Shown piece after piece: positions 1,040-48,366 of a DNA stretch of 64,000 bases (the first letter of the stretch is position 1; every line of letters begins with the position of its first letter). The stretch is from Thamnidium elegans. Lineage: Eukaryota > Mucoromycota > Mucoromycetes > Mucorales > Mucoraceae. Under the pieces are notes generated by a model. It was not told the origin of the DNA, did not search any database, and worked only from the letters and a program-made list of their open reading frames with translations. Location of the stretch: contig JAIXMG010000003.1 in the NCBI GenBank assembly GCA_025201345.1, forward strand, positions 1-64,000, given 5' to 3'. The translations under genes were made by a program, and so were the position numbers.

Positions 1040-2525
1040 CTGTCATCGATCTGGCAAAAAAGAAGAAAATGACTTCTGGCAAGTAACGTGAGTTGTAAAA
1101 AGCTAGTAAGAAGAGCAATCATCCTGCTCGCTTGAAGGTTACTTGCTTCAAGAGCAATCTTGATATGGTTGTCTTGGAAACAATCAAGGAGCACAACCAT
1201 TAGATCGATGGCTCTAAAGACATGAAACACTTGTCTTTGTCAAGAGAAGCAAGAGCTTATATTGAGGAGAGTCTTAACGAAGGTTATAGAAAGCATGGCA
1301 CCAAGCTTTCGATTCAAGTCTTATGTAACAGTTTTTCGGAAGCATCTAACGCCATCGTACATAGAGATCAGTCAGTACATGCTGACGAGGCTCACAAAAT
1401 TTATAAAAAAATCCAGGAAACCTTTTATAAGTATGTCAACGACCAAAAGGAGTCTTTTAAGATCAGATTGGATGAATTAGTAGCTAATGGCTATAAAACT
1501 TTTGTTGGTAATCACTACGATACTGCTTTCTCTTTCGGTTTCTCTTACCCCGGCAGCAAGTACTGTTGCTTGAAAAAGAGTCAATCTGTCTTGATGCAAT
1601 TCATTGTATTACCAACATTGATAAGAGTATATTATTTACACCATTGTGCTTCGCCACCCTTTAGTTGGAACTAATTGTCCTGTAGTATTTATGTTTACAG
1701 AAGACCGCTCTATGGTTCTTATTAAAGAGCTCTTAATGTTTCTTAGATTATTCGTTGTTTTTCAATGTATCAGAAAGATTACCATCTAAGTTAGCAGTAA
1801 TGATTATAGAACTATTCAGGTAGATTATCCCCAATCAACCGTACTATGATGTATATTCCATGTAGCAACAGCATGGATGGAAAAAATTAGACTTTTGACG
1901 AAATTGTGCAGTACAGCTCAGAACTTACAAGCTCATAAGTTAATTAACGCAAGCCTTAAGAGTATGATGTAGGAGAAGAATGCTAGTGCATTCACTAGAA
2001 AATGAGCTGAATGTTTTGTCAATAATGCTAACTTCCCTAAATTTCTTAATTAGTTCAAACACCATTACCTCGATGGCGACAAATATATTCAGTGGTATGC
2101 AGAATTTCGGCCTCAATATGGAAACAAACAACTTTGTTGAAAGTTGGCATAATCAGTCGAAGATCACGTACTTGGAAAGAAAGAGAAACGAAAGAGCGGA
2201 CCGTTTGATTTTCATCCTTGTAAACGATATTGAACCCGATTCTATTGAAAAAACCAATCGTATTCAGTTGAATGTAGGTAAAATGAATCCCGAAGAATAT
2301 GGAAGAAGAAGAAGAAGAGAGTTGGATGCGGAGGCAATTAACGAAGAATTACTGTCTTCGTTAATTGAAATATTAGAAGGCGCTGACGTTATGTATAGAG
2401 TAAAACCTTTTACAGCTAGAGGTTTTGTCTATGATATTACTGCTATCAATGAAGAAATGAAAGATTGTAGCTGTTCAGATTTTACATGGAATCATATTGT
2501 TTGTAAGTATATGTACTGGAATTAA
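1040..2525 (+). pseudogene. Decayed MULE-type (Mutator-like) transposase, relic 1
   Basis: Transposase-like peptides follow one another in the correct order but in different frames. Around 1115-1200 there is a FAR1/WRKY-GCM1-like DNA-binding piece ending in EHNH. Around 1222-1500 there is a helical segment. At about 1590-1740 comes a DDE-like core peptide (LVGTNCPVVFMFTEDRSM). Near 1850-1885 is the FHVATAWMEKIR segment. Around 2110-2160 is METNNFVESWHNQ. At about 2462-2512 lies a SWIM-like motif, CSCSDFTWNHIVCKYMY, whose last histidine is replaced by tyrosine. Stops and frameshifts separate these blocks, so no functional product is expected. Terminal inverted repeats were not found by eye. 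The order and motifs support a MULE; the subfamily is uncertain. Confidence 0.7.
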
Positions 2526-28656: not shown

Positions 28657-29975
28657 TTACAATTTGGTAGGCTTTACTTCACCCAAAAAGAGAGTTTTAT
28701 CAGTACTTGCACTCATAATAATGGGTTCTTTAGGATGCCAGTCAACATCATTAACACAACCCTTATGTCCAGGTAACTTGTAAAGAATTTTTCTACTTTC
28801 TACTTCCCAAATAACAACAGATCTATCAGCAGAACCACAAGCAATTTGACTACCATCTGTTGCCCAACAAGGTCTAATCAAATTCTTTTCATAACCGTGA
28901 GGAGCTCCTTCAAATATCTTGAGACAACGATCGGCTGCAGCAAATGGTTTAACATCCCATATACGTACTTTATTTTATATATGTAAGTATAAGACCCTTA
29001 TTATTACGATTATTATTTTATTTTACCTGTGTTATCCATAGAATTTGTCAACAAGTTATTTCCATCAGGACTAAGTGACATGCCTGAAACTGTATCCATA
29101 TGCCCCTTCATAGTATACGCTAATTGATTTTTACGTACATCCCAAACTTTAATGTCATTATCAAGACCAGCTGAATAAATCATATCACCAGCATCACTAA
29201 ATGAGACACTAGTGACTTGATAATCATTTTCAAAGGTACTGACAGCTTCCTTTGTTCTATTATCCCAAATCTTGACTGTACAATCGTCACTTCCAGATAC
29301 AACTAATTCAGGCCCTCTTCTAGCTACTTGACAACTGTTCACAATACCAGTATGTCCTCTCCATCTACGTGTACGTTCTCCTGTCTTGACATCAAATATG
29401 CCAACTGATTTATCGGCTGAACAACTGAATATTTGGTTCGAGTCTCTGGACCAGTGAATTTCCATAATTGCGTTGGTGTGTCCTTTTAAAACACCATAGT
29501 TCTTGACTTCACCGTATGTGTTCCATAATACTAGTACAAAATAGTGTTGGTTTTTTTTCTGTCGCAAGTGCATTTTTTTTTTTTTTTTTTACTTACGAAT
29601 TTGTCTATCAAAGCCTGCACTGGCAATGTTTTCTCCAGAACGATCAAATTCACAAGAAAAAATCTCGCCCTATCTTAGATATAAGTAACCTGTTTTTTTT
29701 TATATTTAGTAAAATACTTTACATCATGACCTATTAATTGCATAACAGGTGCTTCTAAACCAGATGTACGCTTAATCTAAACATGATAAAATTAACAAAT
29801 TGTCTTTTTTTTTAAAAAAAAAATACATGACGCGTACTGTTCCGACAATGGCATTCTTTGTTCCCGATCTTTCGTTTGATAAAGTGATAAGTGAACTGTT
29901 ATTTGATTCGTCATCTTGTTTTGCGCGCTTAATAAGTGCTCCAGCAACTGATGTATCTTTTCTTTTCTCTGCCAT
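28657..29975 (-). CDS. snrnp40: U5 snRNP 40-kDa WD40 protein (SNRNP40/Cwf17), 5 exons
   Basis: Spliceosomal U5 component that binds Prp8. Exons: 29975-29838, 29776-29723, 29669-29597, 29530-29027, 28967-28657; 359 residues, matching the human protein length. A polar N-terminus with KRAK precedes seven WD repeats. Recognisable stretches are LEAPVMQLIGHDGEIFSC, IASAGFDRQI, VKIWDNRTKEAVSTF, GLDNDIKVWDVRKNQLAYTM, MDNTVRIWDVKPF and ILYKLPGHKGCVNDVDWHP, all in the order of the U5-40K family. The first donor could be either of two in-phase sites (GTACGC or GTCATG), changing the product by two residues. Tail-to-tail with the rhomboid-like gene, 67 bp apart. Confidence 0.95.
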
Positions 29976-30079
29976 GTTTTATAATAATTCAAAAAAGATG
30001 AGCTATTTTTTTTTTATTTCTTTTTTTTTTTAAATGGCTAAAAAAAAAAGTGACTTCTTTTAAAGAGTAAAAAGACCTT

Positions 30080-30669
30080 TCAAATGGCTGGTGACTGCAG
30101 GCATAATGATGAATGTCTTGATCTTATATTGTATTGCGAGTTGATATAATCCATCATTATACCTTTGATATTTATGGCGGCGTTTATGTCTCTGTACCAA
30201 ATCCTCTTAATATCTAAGTAAGTTTTGCAAATTTTTAAACAGTAAACTATACATTAAATGATATTAGTACATGTACATAATTATTAGGGAGGTAGTTAGA
30301 CATACTCAAGGATTGGTAACTTTTATTGCCTTCTTTTTTCTTCCAAAAAAAGTAATTAGTGTCTGGAACTGCCAAAAAAAATAAAAGTAGACTTACTCTC
30401 TATATTTGTTTTCTAGAGTGCCGTGGCACTTTGAGCATGTTATATACGGAATTCGTCTAATAATACAACTAAAGATTTCCTCGCTATTTCAACCATTGTC
30501 TTCTTTTTATTAATAAAAAAAAATTATAAAGAGGTATATGCAGTATATGATTCACTATTACCTTGACAGGGGTTGGTGTATTATTTTTCATCGTACCTTG
30601 TATGCTAGCGTTTTCATGATATGATTGAAGCCTTTTCTGACAGGACAAAGGGCTGCTTGGCTCTAACAT
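30080..30669 (-). pseudogene. Fanzor-like (TnpB homologue) C-terminal fragment, relic 2
   Basis: Spliced minus-strand pieces spell the C-terminal half of a Fanzor. An exon at 30669-30562 ends in NNTPTPVK. After an intron, 30502 onward gives KSLVVLLDEFR, the RuvC-II-side acidic segment that precedes the zinc ribbon. A frameshift near 30445 leads to ITCSKCHGTLENKYRE (first CxxC pair), ending at a GTAAGT donor at 30396. After an AG at 30248-30247 comes YCLKICKT (a C...C pair) and then DIKRIWYRDINAAINIKGI near 30210-30165, the RuvC-III D-x-N-A-A-x-N-I signature. The frame ends with TGA at 30080-30082. The N-terminal half (RuvC-I) is missing, so it is dead. The stop lies about 105 bp upstream of the snrnp40 start codon on the same strand, so the element landed in or beside that promoter. 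Confidence 0.7.
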
Positions 30670-30710
30670 TCTTCCTCCTTTTTCTTCCTTTAGTCTTTAT
30701 TGACCGGTAG

Positions 30711-31439
30711 GCTAAAGGAAAAAGTTCATTACAGTTAATTCTTGATACACCTCCAACATGGGCTGAATCATGTTACTTTGCTGATTATAAATCAATCGAA
30801 TCTAGCCTGCAGCATATTCCGTTGCACCCACTGGTTGGATTGCCATTTTTCCTAATTGGAAAATATCGATCATTGGTAATCAACCCATCACGTTCTGATT
30901 TAACAATACAAAAATTGTATAGTATTGCGAAAGAAATTTTCGAAAATCGTACCGCTGAATATGATAACCTTGGTGAATTCCTCGACGTGTGCCTGTGTGC
31001 AAATGACCAAATTAAACAAGGATTAACATTCTTGCGTGTTAACACGCTTGATACCAATACAAAAACTCAAATAAAACTTTCACTTATGGGAGCATCTTCA
31101 ATTTTATCAAAGTTTCAACAAAATCATGTACCAACGTTGTCAGTGGCATCGCCATTATCATAACCATCGCAGTCGCCACCTTTCCATCCTTCAGAAGTGA
31201 TTCGAGTAGCTTCTCTACAATTGAATAATGTACATCATCAGGAACTACGGGTACAAAGTTCAGTCGAAGACAACCAATGGACTTTTACCAAAAACTATAT
31301 CAATAACCATAAATCCAATACCCGTACTAATAACAGTGGAGAACCAATTCCATGGGAGGCAATTTATCGTGATGGACCAACTAGAGGATATTTTAGTACG
31401 TTTGCCAATGTCAACTCTACAAGAACTAGTTTTTACTGA
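30711..31439 (+). pseudogene. Unrecognised coding fragment with an in-frame stop
   Basis: After an AG at 30709-30710 the frame is open (start SSLQLILDTPPTWAESCYF) to a TAA at 31161-31163. It continues open in the same frame to a TGA at 31437-31439. The first part is helix-rich (DLTIQKLYSIAKEIFENR, KTQIKLSLMGASSILSKF). The second part (EPIPWEAIYRDGPTRG) overlaps another open frame at 31228-31578 that also looks protein-like, so which frame was coding is unclear. No start exon was found. Probably a remnant of a lineage-specific gene or element. Confidence 0.35.
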
Positions 31440-32312
31440 AAGAAAAATATCTAGCCATTGTCTACATCTTTTATTAAAAAATATACGAAATAATGCATTT
31501 TGTGGCGTTATATCGAAAAACAATAAAAATAACAATTTAGTTAAATACCATATTCAACAATGTCGAGGATACTCTTAGTAGAGTCATATTACATAATGAT
31601 AAATTATACCAAGTATAGGTATACCAATATTGCACTTAATATATGCCTCAATCTATTTCATTATAACTAAGACTAACAATAGTATTTCTTCATTAATTTA
31701 CGCCAAGACAAAATAATAGTTGTAGAGCAATTATATATTTATTATTTATTATATCTTTGTTATTATTACATGACTGGAGTTATATTATAATATTGACCTT
31801 GCACGAATACAATTTTTATCATTAGCCATCAGCGTATATGAGTGAGTCCATAAAATTGGTGTGGTACTATCAGGGGAAGTAGCAAGATTGTAGCCAGAAG
31901 CTGCTCAATTAAGCACAAGAAAGGTAACAAAATGCATAGTGTCTCTTTTTAATATCGAAAACTCTTATGCTGTAGTTCGAAAAAGTTTCTAGATATAACA
32001 TTATGTTAAATATTTTTATATGTGATAGTTATTTTATAATTATGAGCATAATTTATTCTGTAGATTTTGAGCGGCTCTTTCAGTAAAGTGGAAGCTTTGC
32101 ATTTTCTTGTAAAGTTGTACTTTTGTAAAGGTAATACACACTCTTCATCAACTTTTTTCATTTACTCTTTGAGGCTTCAGAGTCTTCAGATACTTCTGGG
32201 ACGTTAAGCACTCTTTTGGACATTCTATATGTTTTAAAAAGAGTCAATCATACGTAATAGCGAAATTTATAATATCTATATATAGTTTTCGGATTAAAGT
32301 AAAGTAACCTTT

Positions 32313-32314
<2 letters not shown>

Positions 32315-32353
<39 letters not shown>
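32315..32353. repeat. Homopolymer run of 39 T
   Basis: Uninterrupted T-run, likely hypermutable. Its exact length may be affected by sequencing. Confidence 0.9.
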
Positions 32354-32354
<1 letters not shown>

Positions 32355-32389
32355 GCTTTAGTAGGTGTAAACCACTTTTGCGTATCTTT

Positions 32390-32460
32390 GCGTTTCTCTA
32401 TCGCTGTAATTGGAAGTGATATAAGCGAATAAATAACGACGGTTAGAGCGATAGAGACGC
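32390..32460. repeat. Imperfect inverted repeat (hairpin-capable)
   Basis: The arm GCGTTTCTCTATCGCT at 32390-32405 pairs with AGCGATAGAGACGC at 32447-32460. The only difference is two extra T in the left arm. The spacer is 41 nt. It could be a small MITE end pair or a structured RNA segment. Confidence 0.6.
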
Positions 32461-32676
32461 ATTAAAACTATCAAGTGACGCTTTCGTATGTTACTTTCTT
32501 ATTGAATTTAAGCAAAGATGATTATAAAAAAAAAAGAAGGTTATTGTTGGTGCATTAAATAGCGTTTTAAATTATGACATAAGTATGAAATTATATCATC
32601 TGTAAGCCTAGAAACTAAATTGAAATATGTTCCTTGTCGCGATGTAGAAGAAGGAATAAGTTTTTTTTTTTTTTTT

Positions 32677-32958
32677 TTAATTTTAGAGCAAGATCTTTTT
32701 ACTAAAGAAAATCGCTATGATGTATATACCAGCGAAAGTGCTGTACTCATTTCCGGTCCATGCCACGACTTCATTTACTGCAGAGCTGATTATAAGCTTA
32801 TGTTTCACATACAGAGATTCATGTCTGCTTTGGACATAATCGACACTAATTTTAATACGGTGTGCAGCCAGCCCATCGAATTAAATCAAGTCGAATATAG
32901 CAGCAACAACAACAATAATAATGATAATAATAATAATACCGATAGACAGCAATATTGA
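32677..32958 (+). CDS. Possible terminal exon of an unknown protein
   Basis: After a pyrimidine run and TTTTAG acceptor-like sequence, an open frame starts with EQDLFTKENRYDVY. It contains ESAVLISGPCHDFIYC and ends in an Asn/Asp repeat tract and a TGA at 32956-32958. No upstream start exon could be fixed; the short frame at 32620-32676 contains a T-run. I do not recognise it. It may be a gene remnant. Confidence 0.25.
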   Translation, partial: LILEQDLFTKENRYDVYTSESAVLISGPCHDFIYCRADYKLMFHIQRFMSALDIIDTNFNTVCSQPIELNQVEYSSNNNNNNDNNNNTDRQQY

Positions 32959-33141
32959 TGGATATAATCATGTTGAAACTTATAATATTAATGATGATAT
33001 ATCTTTTTATTAGAATTTCAAAATCTGCTCTCTGTAAGCATCTCTTACATATAAAGATGTAATCATAAAAAATTGGGATGAGTTTTTGTTTTAAACCTCA
33101 ATGTTGGGACGTTTCGATAGTCACAAACGTAATTTTTTATT

Positions 33142-44669: not shown

Positions 44670-46157
44670 AATATTCGCCTTTGATCACTTAGTTGCGTAA
44701 AACCAATTGAAGTAAGGCATTTTTTTTTGTACTCTTATGCTGATGTCCTCTTTATCCAATCACCTTACTTTGCTTATTCTGTGGCAAAATAAGGAGGTTC
44801 AAAAATAAAAAATTGTTACACAGCATTTTTCTCACCTTTGACAAACTATATAATTTTGACGATCACCGAGAAGACACCAAACACCAGAAGAGTAATCTTG
44901 TTACCATAATAAGAAGAGCCACCAAAATGAAAAGACTGCCAAAAGATAAGAAAGAAAAATAAAAAAAGAAGGGAAACCAGAAAGTAACGAAATCAAATCG
45001 AAAGGTTTATTAAGGTTGAACCGAGAAGAAAATACACAGGTTAATTAGAGAACAATTTTGGGGTGATATTAGTGCAAACAGAGATAGGTAATTATATGAT
45101 ATAATATTATATAATATGGTATATACATAGAATACATTTTTTTATTTGGCTTCTTTATCAAATAAAATAAACACCAGTTTGTCATCCATAAACGTTTTCT
45201 CAAGGATATCAAACAAATTAATAAACAAGTCATTTTATTATACAAAGAAAAATAGTGACTGAAGAAAAGCAAATGAGAGACACATTAGCCAATTTCTTTT
45301 TAAATTGTTTCCAGATCTGACTACGTGGAAGTTTGTCTCTATGCAAACCCAAAAGTGATGTTTTCCAAGGAGAACGTCTTTTTTGTCATAAAGGAGCTTT
45401 TACACCTCATCAAGACAAAAAGATGGTAATAGTTAAACACTATACCAAATTGTAACCATATGAAAGGGAAAAAACCTAGTAAACCCGGCATACGTTAATA
45501 TGAGGGCGTCATGCCAGAGTTATATCAAATAGCACGATCATACACGGATGAGGAAGAAAGTAAGTGACCGTAACCGCGATCCCAATTTTTCCAATCTCCC
45601 CCACGCATGCCTTGCTGCTGCAGTTTTTCCAACCAGTTATGAAAGAAAAATATATTAGTGAAGGCTCTACTTGCAATATTATTATTCATGAAGATACATA
45701 CCAATAAGTTCCATGATGGCATATGGCTATCTTGATCTCGTTATAACTCCTTAACGCTTCAAGTTAGCCATACAGATCTTTTCACCGATTAAACTACTAT
45801 CATACACGAGTAGTCCTCACCCTCCCCATCCTCATCCTCAAACCTAGCGTATAACTATCTTTTATGTCACCACTATAAGACGACCAGTTTTACTTTTGGT
45901 AGACATTCACGAAGATTATCAGCTTGGTAAGCCGTCACCATACCAACTACCTACTCTTCTAGTATATATTATAAATAACATATTTAACAATGACGGGAGG
46001 TCATCATCTTGATAGGTCGCTACCCTAACAACTACCCTGTTCTCCATAAATGATCAATATAAGCGAATTTGTGAATGGCTCCAGTTTTAAAAAAGTCGAG
46101 CTATTTCCAAATATTGATTTTTTTTTTTGTAGACTTTGAAAGCCATGGGTATAAATA
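44670..46157. other. Gene-free stretch (1.5 kb)
   Basis: Contains scattered short open frames (for example minus 45722-45525, ending SSSSVYDRAI) but no start, splice or family evidence. A 19-bp word at 44774-44792 recurs with one change at 50793-50811. Confidence 0.35.
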
Positions 46158-47560
46158 ATGTTATTAAAAAAAGACATACAGAATATCCAAGCTTTATTTC
46201 TCAAAGACGACGACGGAAAAGTAATGTATTCTTTAATAACTAATTTGGAAAACTTAAATTACGTGGTTAGAATTCAAGTAAAAAACAGCAATGATAAAGC
46301 TATGGATGAAACTGGAGCCAAAGAGGTAACCAGTCTTTTTTTCATCAAACAAACGGCTATTGAAGATGTCAGACGCTGGCCGGAGGCTGTTATTATAGAT
46401 GCGACATATAAAACCAACGCCCATAAAATGTCGTTGATTAATATCGTTGGAACAGGTAATGTCTCTTCTATCAGAGTTGATAATCGATTGGAAACATTTC
46501 CTATTGCTGCTGCTTTTGTTAGCTCAAAAATTGAAGATGATTATACTTGGGTCTTAAAGGAGCTGAGAAGTGCTGTTTGGGACGATAGCGAATTGCCATC
46601 TGTCTTTGTTACAGACAACGAACAGGCTTTAAAAAATGCCATCGAAAGTATATTTCCTGAAAGTCGTCATTTACTCTGTCGTGGCATTTATGGAATACTA
46701 TGGCTACAAAGCTATCTGTAGGTAACGTTACCAAAGAGGAATACAATCTTCTTCTGGCCGAAGCCGAATTTGCATTTAAAAATGCTATGACTTGTTCCGA
46801 TGAAAACACTTTTCAACGTTCTTTGCTTAAATTTCAAACAATTGTTACCAAACAAGGGAATTTTGCAAAGAACGGCGAAGCTGCTAAGATGTACTTAAAA
46901 AACATGTAAGTGAATTGCAACTTTTATTACTTTCTATTTATTTTTATTGTATCTTGTATTAAATGTTTTTACAATTAAAAGATTATTACAAGTAGATGAA
47001 ATAAAACGCTGGGCTGGAGTACTTGATAATAGGCACTCTCATACGGATAATAGAATATCTGGTGGAGCTGAAGGCTTCCATTCTGGTCTGAAAAAAGTCC
47101 TAGGTCATCAATCTGCTTCACGATTAACTCTTACCACTAAGCGTATGGATGCCTATTATAATCAGAAGGTAATTTTACCAATGCTAAGACAAAGATTTTA
47201 TTCTGGCTCAACTTTTTTTTTTCTTTTTGTAGCGATCTGAACGTAACGGAAGGTTAAGAATATATTCGCTTAGTTAGGATTCTACCTTGTTCAATAAGAA
47301 AGAGAATATCGATTTGTCAACCTGAGACACAAAATTGTTCGATTCGCTATGGATAAAAGCATTTTGAATACAATTACCACTACTCGAGATGACTTCAAAA
47401 TAAAGGTGACGACTGTGATTGCTCTGATAGGATCGTGTAAAAACTACCTTGCCCATGTATGGTTGACTCAACCTCTGATATATTTCATTTGGATATTGTT
47501 GATAAACGTTGGTATTTGGAACTCGAGTATAGTAAGTTTTGGATTTTATATCTTATGAAG
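46158..47560 (+). pseudogene. Decayed MULE-type transposase, relic 2
   Basis: The frame at 46158-46721 holds the MULE DDE core: VIIDATYKTN (first Asp), ETFPIAAAFVSSKIEDDYTW and SVFVTDNEQALKNAI (second Asp), then ESRHLLC. A deletion/frameshift near 46680 moves to KLSVGNVTKEEYNLLLAEAE (46700-46909). After an intron-like gap comes WAGVLDNRHSHTDNRISGGA with EGFHSGLKKVLG (third acidic residue; 46947-47170). The C-terminal zinc-knuckle region near 47440-47560 is broken, with STSDIFHLDIVDKRWYLE in another frame. The N-terminal DNA-binding part is missing. It is a different subfamily from relic 1. Confidence 0.75.
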
Positions 47561-48366
47561 CGTTTCTTCAGTAGACTATCCTTCATCAGAAAGATGCGCA
47601 GATACTCGAGGTTTTGTATTCATCAAGTAGATAAACATGGAATCCTTCTTTTCTTAACATTTTTCTCATTCCTTTCCCTCGAATTGGTTCTTGAAACTTC
47701 GTATGACAGGCAGACTAATTTCCTAAAATAAGGTTCTCTACTATATCAGTCAAGTATCCACGCTCCCAAAAGGCTGTTTTAGTGTCGGTTTTTTAGTTCT
47801 ATTGACCCCTTTTTTTTTTTTTACAAAATATTAGCTATTCCTGCAAAGTTAAGGTTTTTTATTTTAAAAAAATAAAGAATGCACAATAGTTGGGGTTAAT
47901 TTTGATCTTTTAATAATGTTTTATATATTGATAAAAACAAAAAGGAACGGGTACATAATATATTTATCTATTAAACTGCCTATAAAAATATATCAAACTC
48001 AAATAAAAAAGGTAGTTACCATTCGTTATTGATCGGGGAGAAAGAAAGACCTTGACTTCAAAGTATAATTCGGTAATATTTGCCATTGCAGACGTTTAAG
48101 CTCGAGAGGGAGAGAGTAATGAAAGGAATCTATTGATCTATTCATATCTTCAACAATTACTATCTTTTTACCTCATCCTTTACTACTTTCATATCGAACT
48201 CTTCGCCTTATAAGCGTTGATTGGATAGAATATACGCTTTTGAATTTGTGACCGCCGTCTTCAACGTCATATATATATTTTTTTTCCCTTTCCCAACTAC
48301 AACAACAAAAAAGTTTATACTAGTCTTTTCTGTTTAGTTTCCAAACAAGACATACATATATATAAA
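47561..48366. other. Spacer with the rbm8a promoter
   Basis: No gene supported. TATATATATT and a T/C-rich leader lie within 100 bp of the rbm8a start codon. Confidence 0.45.

Follow-up and report, generated by a model that had tools for sequence, protein, structure and literature searches.

The 64,000-nucleotide stretch of Thamnidium elegans DNA analysed here (the window, the start of contig C23) contains, with a probability of roughly 90%, a dead and truncated copy of a MuDR/MULE DNA transposon that carried a multi-exon gene of the Fanzor1 type. The gene is a spliced Fanzor gene that lies in a repeated element and is now broken, and some of its relatives have flanking repeats and shared ends. 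The copy itself makes no nuclease. Its parts are listed in Table 1.

Organization of the decayed element

Three motifs had drawn attention to this region: LLDEFR, TCSKCHGT and WYRDINAAINI, which were predicted to lie on one strand at 30080-30669, with intron-like gaps between them. All three are on the minus strand, within 30502-30397 and 30246-30080, and the gaps are read as three introns. The distance of about 105 bp originally given between the stop and the start of snrnp40 is also accurate, as the stop codon (30080-30082) is 104 bases from the ATG (29973-29975) of an snrnp40-like WD40 gene on the same minus strand. Three other points of the original prediction require correction. The end at 30669 is too short, since homology begins at 30732; the copy has three frame changes instead of a single frameshift; and more than the C-terminal half survives, since a Fanzor N-terminal fragment is found at 32030-32223. 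The peptide matches of the N-terminal region lie within this last interval (protein P0011, E 1.4e-12).

Table 1. Features of the decayed element in the window (the 5' end of the element is at the high coordinate).
Feature	Position	Strand	Basis or remark
Whole decayed element (~3.07 kb)	30041..33108	minus	blastn, 5'-end motif
5'-end remnant, CCCAACATTGAGG	33096..33108	minus	by eye; other copies have CGATTTACTTATTTCCCCCAACATTGTGGCTTA and similar
5' region common to L036 (71%) and partly L039 (70%)	32349..33047	minus	blastn
Decayed Fanzor N-terminal region	31813..32252	minus	80% DNA identity to L022 1483-1913
Single-copy segment in place of the element's middle (1,080 bases)	30733..31812	plus	genome DNA search
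Fanzor exon containing the RuvC-II region (NASIQGTMKNNTPTPVK) and one frame change	30562..30732	minus	
Intron 1, GTAATA...AAAAG	30503..30561	minus	boundary 30503 set by eye; the pattern script gave 30506
Exon containing LLDEFR and, after a frame change, the first zinc pair TCSKCHGT	30397..30502	minus	
Intron 2, GTAAGT...GGAAG	30340..30396	minus	other copies mostly GGCAG
Short exon KKEGNKSYQSL, frame change where the preceding exon joins	30306..30339	minus	also in gene models P0001, P0003, P0004
Intron 3, GTATGT, TACTAATA, TATAG	30247..30305	minus	ends TACTAATATCATTTAATGTATAG
Last exon: second zinc pair CKTY, RuvC-III WYRDINAAINI, stop	30080..30246	minus	
Remnant of the element's 3' end	30041..30079	minus	

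The blocks that match other copies by blastn are 30041-30732, 31813-32252 and 32349-33047. The 3' terminus is lost: the window copy ends at about 30041, without the last ~20 bases of the family. A Pfam search on the reverse-strand frame of L036, one of the copies sharing the 5' region, gave no domain at E<=1.

The family in the genome and its splicing

The genome searched comprises 34.1 Mb in 64 contigs. A search for further copies, proposed in the original prediction, was successful: the 57-residue tail encoded by the last exon matches 33 other places at E<0.001, with 41-76% identity. The longest copy retrieved, L022, has 77 matching pieces genome-wide, its own included. Other family regions were examined in sets of 19 and then 20 more, one of which (L058) lies largely within another. 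At least three Fanzor subfamilies can be told apart in the genome by eye. At E<=0.001, the profile PF07282 (TNB) matches 21 places in the genome, none of them in the window. Several have open frames of 200-270 aa, and matches such as L001-L008 look like a separate Fanzor subfamily. A published genome of T. elegans has a GC content of 33.15% and contains MULE elements, as do all Mucorales sequenced there, according to the text consulted (PMC7928374).

Splicing was tested in nine copies by cutting out the three gaps with common splice signals. Two copies (L027 and L030) then yield a stop-free single frame from the RuvC-II exon to the C-terminus, while L022 gives one frame with one stop and L023 one frame with three stops. 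Frame changes persist in the other five, the window copy among them; those of L024 arise at least partly from the pattern misplacing an intron end. The NCBI models P0001, P0003 and P0004 have the same introns to within a codon, as judged by eye. Intron 1 is absent from the exon of L045, a subfamily A copy.

Intron 3 (window 30247-30305, minus; L022 4237-4292) carries AATAATTATGTACATGTACTAATATCATTTAA or a near variant in 10 of 10 aligned copies, by eye, with L039 lacking its last bases, and this motif contains the palindrome GTACATGTAC. It is kept, whereas subgroups differ from each other at 24-36% of third codon positions. Whole introns are often less diverged than third positions (17/167 versus 46/148 for L022 against L034), a difference for which T-runs may account in part.

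The probable carrier transposon

The assignment to the MuDR/MULE class is based on the ends of the copies and on the proteins encoded between them. End repeats, suggested as a check on the original prediction, were tested in ten copies. Direct repeats flank both ends of four of them (L045, 11 bp; L029, 9 bp; L026 and L022, 8 bp each), but of none of the remaining six, which include the window copy with its lost 3' terminus. The repeat of L022 sits 8 bases beyond the point where homology ends on the 5' side. A match of only 8 bases is weak in itself, and it is the position that counts. Target duplications of MULEs span 8-11 bp. Terminal inverted repeats were not detected by blastn in five copies, and the inverted-repeat resemblance seen by eye in L045, over about 35 imperfect bases, is weak.

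The 5' end is common to the Fanzor copies and to L042, L043 and L044. Of these, L042 contains in line a DNA-binding-like N-terminal region, a MULE core and the N-terminal half of a subfamily A Fanzor. Its core matches PF10551 below the cut-off (E 0.0047). A homologue of this core with 45% identity, at C23:412519-413148, overlaps a PF10551 match above the cut-off. The DNA-binding-like region has no Pfam match in L042 and a weak WRKY/FAR1 match in L022, and it is fused to a Fanzor C-terminus in P0005, a predicted protein from another T. elegans assembly. In L045, L026 and L029, a single unit extends between the MULE-like 5' end and the Fanzor 3' end, and L045 looks like a deletion derivative with an L042-type 5' end and the C-terminal half of a Fanzor. 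Neither the window copy nor L022 yielded a MULE transposase.

Elsewhere in the window, 1126-2282 (+) holds a decayed MULE transposase with a DNA-binding-like region; it is related to L042, with E values of 1e-21 and 4e-31. A second MULE transposase occupies 46155-47240 (+), with PF10551 at 46389-46679 (75.4 bits) and frames of 188, 82 and 108 aa. On the strand opposite to the latter, a piece reading DEYKTSSICA at 47592-47687 (-) is the only other Fanzor-like match in the window at E<=0.05; with an E of 0.012, it scores no better than shuffled sequence. At a guess, this piece may be the other Fanzor relic to which the original prediction referred.

It is also conceivable, though unlikely, that the Fanzor element belongs to another or an unclassified class, like MCi-2 of Mucor, and that it came to have its 5' end in common with a MULE through recombination. 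The 3' ends of subfamily B are unlike the 5' end, and the 5' regions vary among copies, as they do in MCi-2, for which duplications of 11-12 bp and no terminal inverted repeats are given in the part of PMC3627910 consulted. However, three copies with flanking repeats (L045, L026 and L029) are each a single unit from one type of end to the other, and the same part of that source already records Fanzor1 in MuDR-type elements of Mucorales (PMC3627910). The MuDR/MULE assignment is judged the more probable.

A further question is whether the transposase and the nuclease belonged to one element. The odds are about even that T. elegans holds or once held a MULE encoding its own transposase together with a Fanzor1-type nuclease, of which the window copy would be a deletion derivative from a sister lineage. 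Such a unit would be a modest extension of the known MuDR-type Fanzor elements. It is not proven, because the sequence read of L042 stops at the N-terminal half of the Fanzor and no RuvC-II match is listed beyond it (C34:815.5-818 kb), where the C-terminal half may have been lost.

Decay and genomic surroundings of the window copy

The window copy is dead: RuvC-I is gone, the frame changes three times and one zinc cysteine is lost. The loss of RuvC-I results from replacement of the part corresponding to L022 1913-3813 by the segment 30733-31812. Three of the four zinc cysteines are kept (TCSKC, CKTY) and the last one is a tyrosine. Between the window copy and L031, differences are flat over codon positions 1-3 (22/140, 19/139 and 16/139). 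When subgroups are compared with each other, differences are mostly more frequent at position 3, as for L034 against L039 (22/134, 22/134 and 46/136), but in some cases only weakly so, as for L031 against L034 (28/140, 24/138 and 33/140). The pattern is read as past constraint followed by neutral decay.

A DNA search found no other place in the genome for the single-copy segment. It holds most of a plus-strand frame (30711-31439), which is broken, contains a stop codon and has no start at its head. Its protein matches 22 other genome places at E<0.001, with 27-45% identity. The NCBI model P0072 (BDF21DRAFT_459198, 251 aa, window 30174-31439, plus strand) begins antisense to the RuvC-III exon, with an ATG placed by eye at 30174, and continues into this frame; it has no Pfam match above a cut-off. 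Capture of the frame by the element is possible, because the frame is cut at the element junction and the genome offers no close parent for it (best match elsewhere, 45% identity). An equally good explanation is old neighbouring sequence brought next to the element by a deletion. Gene capture by MULEs occurs in plants. This tendency is named in the part of PMC6446971 consulted.

These surroundings bear on the idea that the host has kept the relic, either as the 5' flank of snrnp40 or as exons of the antisense gene BDF21DRAFT_459198. The 3' end of the element is ~65 bases from the snrnp40-like ATG, and the antisense model starts opposite the RuvC-III exon. Nevertheless, the even distribution of differences from L031 over codon positions, the stop and missing start of the plus-strand frame, the fact that P0072 may be a mere computer prediction, and the finding that genes downstream of 20 copies are not clearly biased towards the same strand make such a role improbable, more so than the alternative carrier class. 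An insertion preference upstream of same-strand genes, hinted at by the flanks of snrnp40, L022 and L025, was considered and rejected: over these 20 copies, the downstream open frame is 5692 aa (+) versus 4975 aa (-).

Identity of the encoded protein

The relic state, the splicing and the zinc ribbon proposed for this gene are supported. Nine spliced or annotated family members were scanned with PF07282 (cut-off 26.3 bits), the unrelated P0072 being left out. Four pass (L023, 29.6; P0001, 31.8; P0002, 31.0; P0005, 35.0 bits), aligned to profile position 59 or 60, and four relatives score below (L022, 24.0; P0009, 21.6; L045, 19.7; P0016, 19.3 bits). The original prediction depended on whether the RuvC-III region aligns to a TnpB/Fanzor profile, and with its exons joined the window copy does align to PF07282, over positions 18-60 and thus to the end of the profile, but with 15.2 bits (E 0.025) its C-terminal peptide stays below the cut-off. 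Unspliced, its exons have no TnpB match. In a set of 30 proteins from the family, 21 give a PF07282 match at E<=0.01 and 14 a match to the NCBI guided TnpB model at E<=1.

A profile of 30 family sequences searched against the PDB matches Fanzor1 of Parasitella (1.5e-9), the Spizellomyces Fanzor (1.8e-8) and Fanzor1 of Guillardia (2.4e-4), and these three Fanzors account for all matches at E<0.001. This result bears on the distinction between Fanzor1 and Fanzor2; the Spizellomyces protein is called an Fz1 in the part of PMC11423790 consulted. A smaller, 8-row profile finds Parasitella Fanzor1 alone (E 0.0088), and searches of the PDB with single sequences retrieved no Fanzor. For P0009, a relative from Rhizopus microsporus, the AlphaFold model is poor (pLDDT 54.6), and its top Foldseek matches, to SpuFz, are not significant (E 0.07 and 0.09).

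Two features separate Fanzors from typical TnpB according to the text of Yoon et al. 2023 consulted (PMC10711439): RuvC1 contains a DPG, and a glutamate precedes the zinc ribbon by six residues. Both features occur in the family (DEFRTSVTCSRC). The pattern E-x6-CxxC is present in 60 of 71 family proteins; DPG is found in 4 of the 71, many of which are short or partial models. The window copy has both the E and the CxxC, with a frame change between them. The RuvC1 motif reads VVGIDPG in L022 and IIGLDPGLRD in P0009 and is absent from the window copy, whose middle is replaced. Relatives have a C4 zinc ribbon between RuvC2 and RuvC3 (CSRC...CPTC), and the RuvC3 aspartate (RDxNAA) appears in the window copy as RDINAAINI. 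An alignment of 13 sequences at the 3' end gave no support for a guide-RNA structure, as 0 of 16 predicted pairs covary. The sequence evidence supports the view that the window motifs belong to the 3' half of a Fanzor gene that was spliced and is now dead.

Chance similarity in AT-rich intergenic DNA can be dismissed. Although each motif is short and the window copy scores below the Pfam cut-off by itself, the T. elegans protein model P0001 matches window 30733-30086 at E 1.1e-31 (tblastn), against a best E of 0.009 for 76 queries in dinucleotide-shuffled windows (n=12), and in blastn seven other copies align with the window copy over 493-697 positions at 77-80% DNA identity.

Comparison with known systems

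The closest described elements are ROr-4, PBl-3 and MCi-4. In the text consulted, Bao and Jurka 2013 report elements of the MuDR type that carry Fanzor1 in Rhizopus, Phycomyces and Mucor and have duplications of 9 bp; they describe these three as having terminal inverted repeats like those of confirmed MuDR elements and no MuDR transposase (PMC3627910). Compared by description, they and the T. elegans family are alike in the Fanzor protein, in their occurrence in Mucorales and, probably, in duplications of ~9 bp. In contrast, the T. elegans copy L042 has a MULE-type transposase in line with the Fanzor N-terminal half, and terminal inverted repeats are weak or absent in T. elegans. Among the matches listed, the openly readable main texts report no MULE transposase and Fanzor in one element.

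The Parasitella parasitica Fanzor1 (PDB 9CF0), the best PDB match of the family profile, aligns with the family over DEFRTS, the zinc ribbon and the RuvC-III region. It is a large nuclease of solved structure, and its FRI domain is reported, in the part of PMC11423790 consulted, in Parasitella and Rhizopus only. The Fanzor of Spizellomyces punctatus (SpuFz, 8GKH), also matched by the profile, is a single ORF between well-conserved inverted repeats, whereas the T. elegans gene has several exons; its authors report finding no transposase between the SpuFz repeats (PMC10432273). Prokaryotic TnpB has the TNB zinc ribbon and the order of RuvC motifs in common with the family, but the RuvC2 glutamate lies ~50 residues before the zinc ribbon in typical TnpB and six in the T. 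elegans family (PMC10711439, in part).

Biological significance

Fanzors, a class of RNA-guided nucleases found in eukaryotic transposons, may serve these transposons in some way. As judged by known Fanzors and TnpB, RNA-guided cutting would help an element persist. This role is discussed in the part of PMC10432273 consulted. For the family described here, a MULE transposase acting in cis or in trans would have moved the live element, with target duplications of ~9 bp. The Fanzor, guided by RNA from the 3' end of the element, may have cut DNA at sites without the element, and repair after cutting could then have restored or spread it.

The window copy itself is an ordinary relic, and what it adds is another Fanzor relic of an already known type; the transposase-plus-Fanzor unit is the only mildly new point. 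If that unit is real, cooperation in cis between a cut-and-paste MULE transposase and an RNA-guided nuclease would become testable in a eukaryote. With apparently at least three Fanzor subfamilies, one of them in line with a MULE-type transposase and one present in dozens of pieces, the genome of T. elegans offers material for asking whether a Fanzor helps a Mutator-like element to persist.
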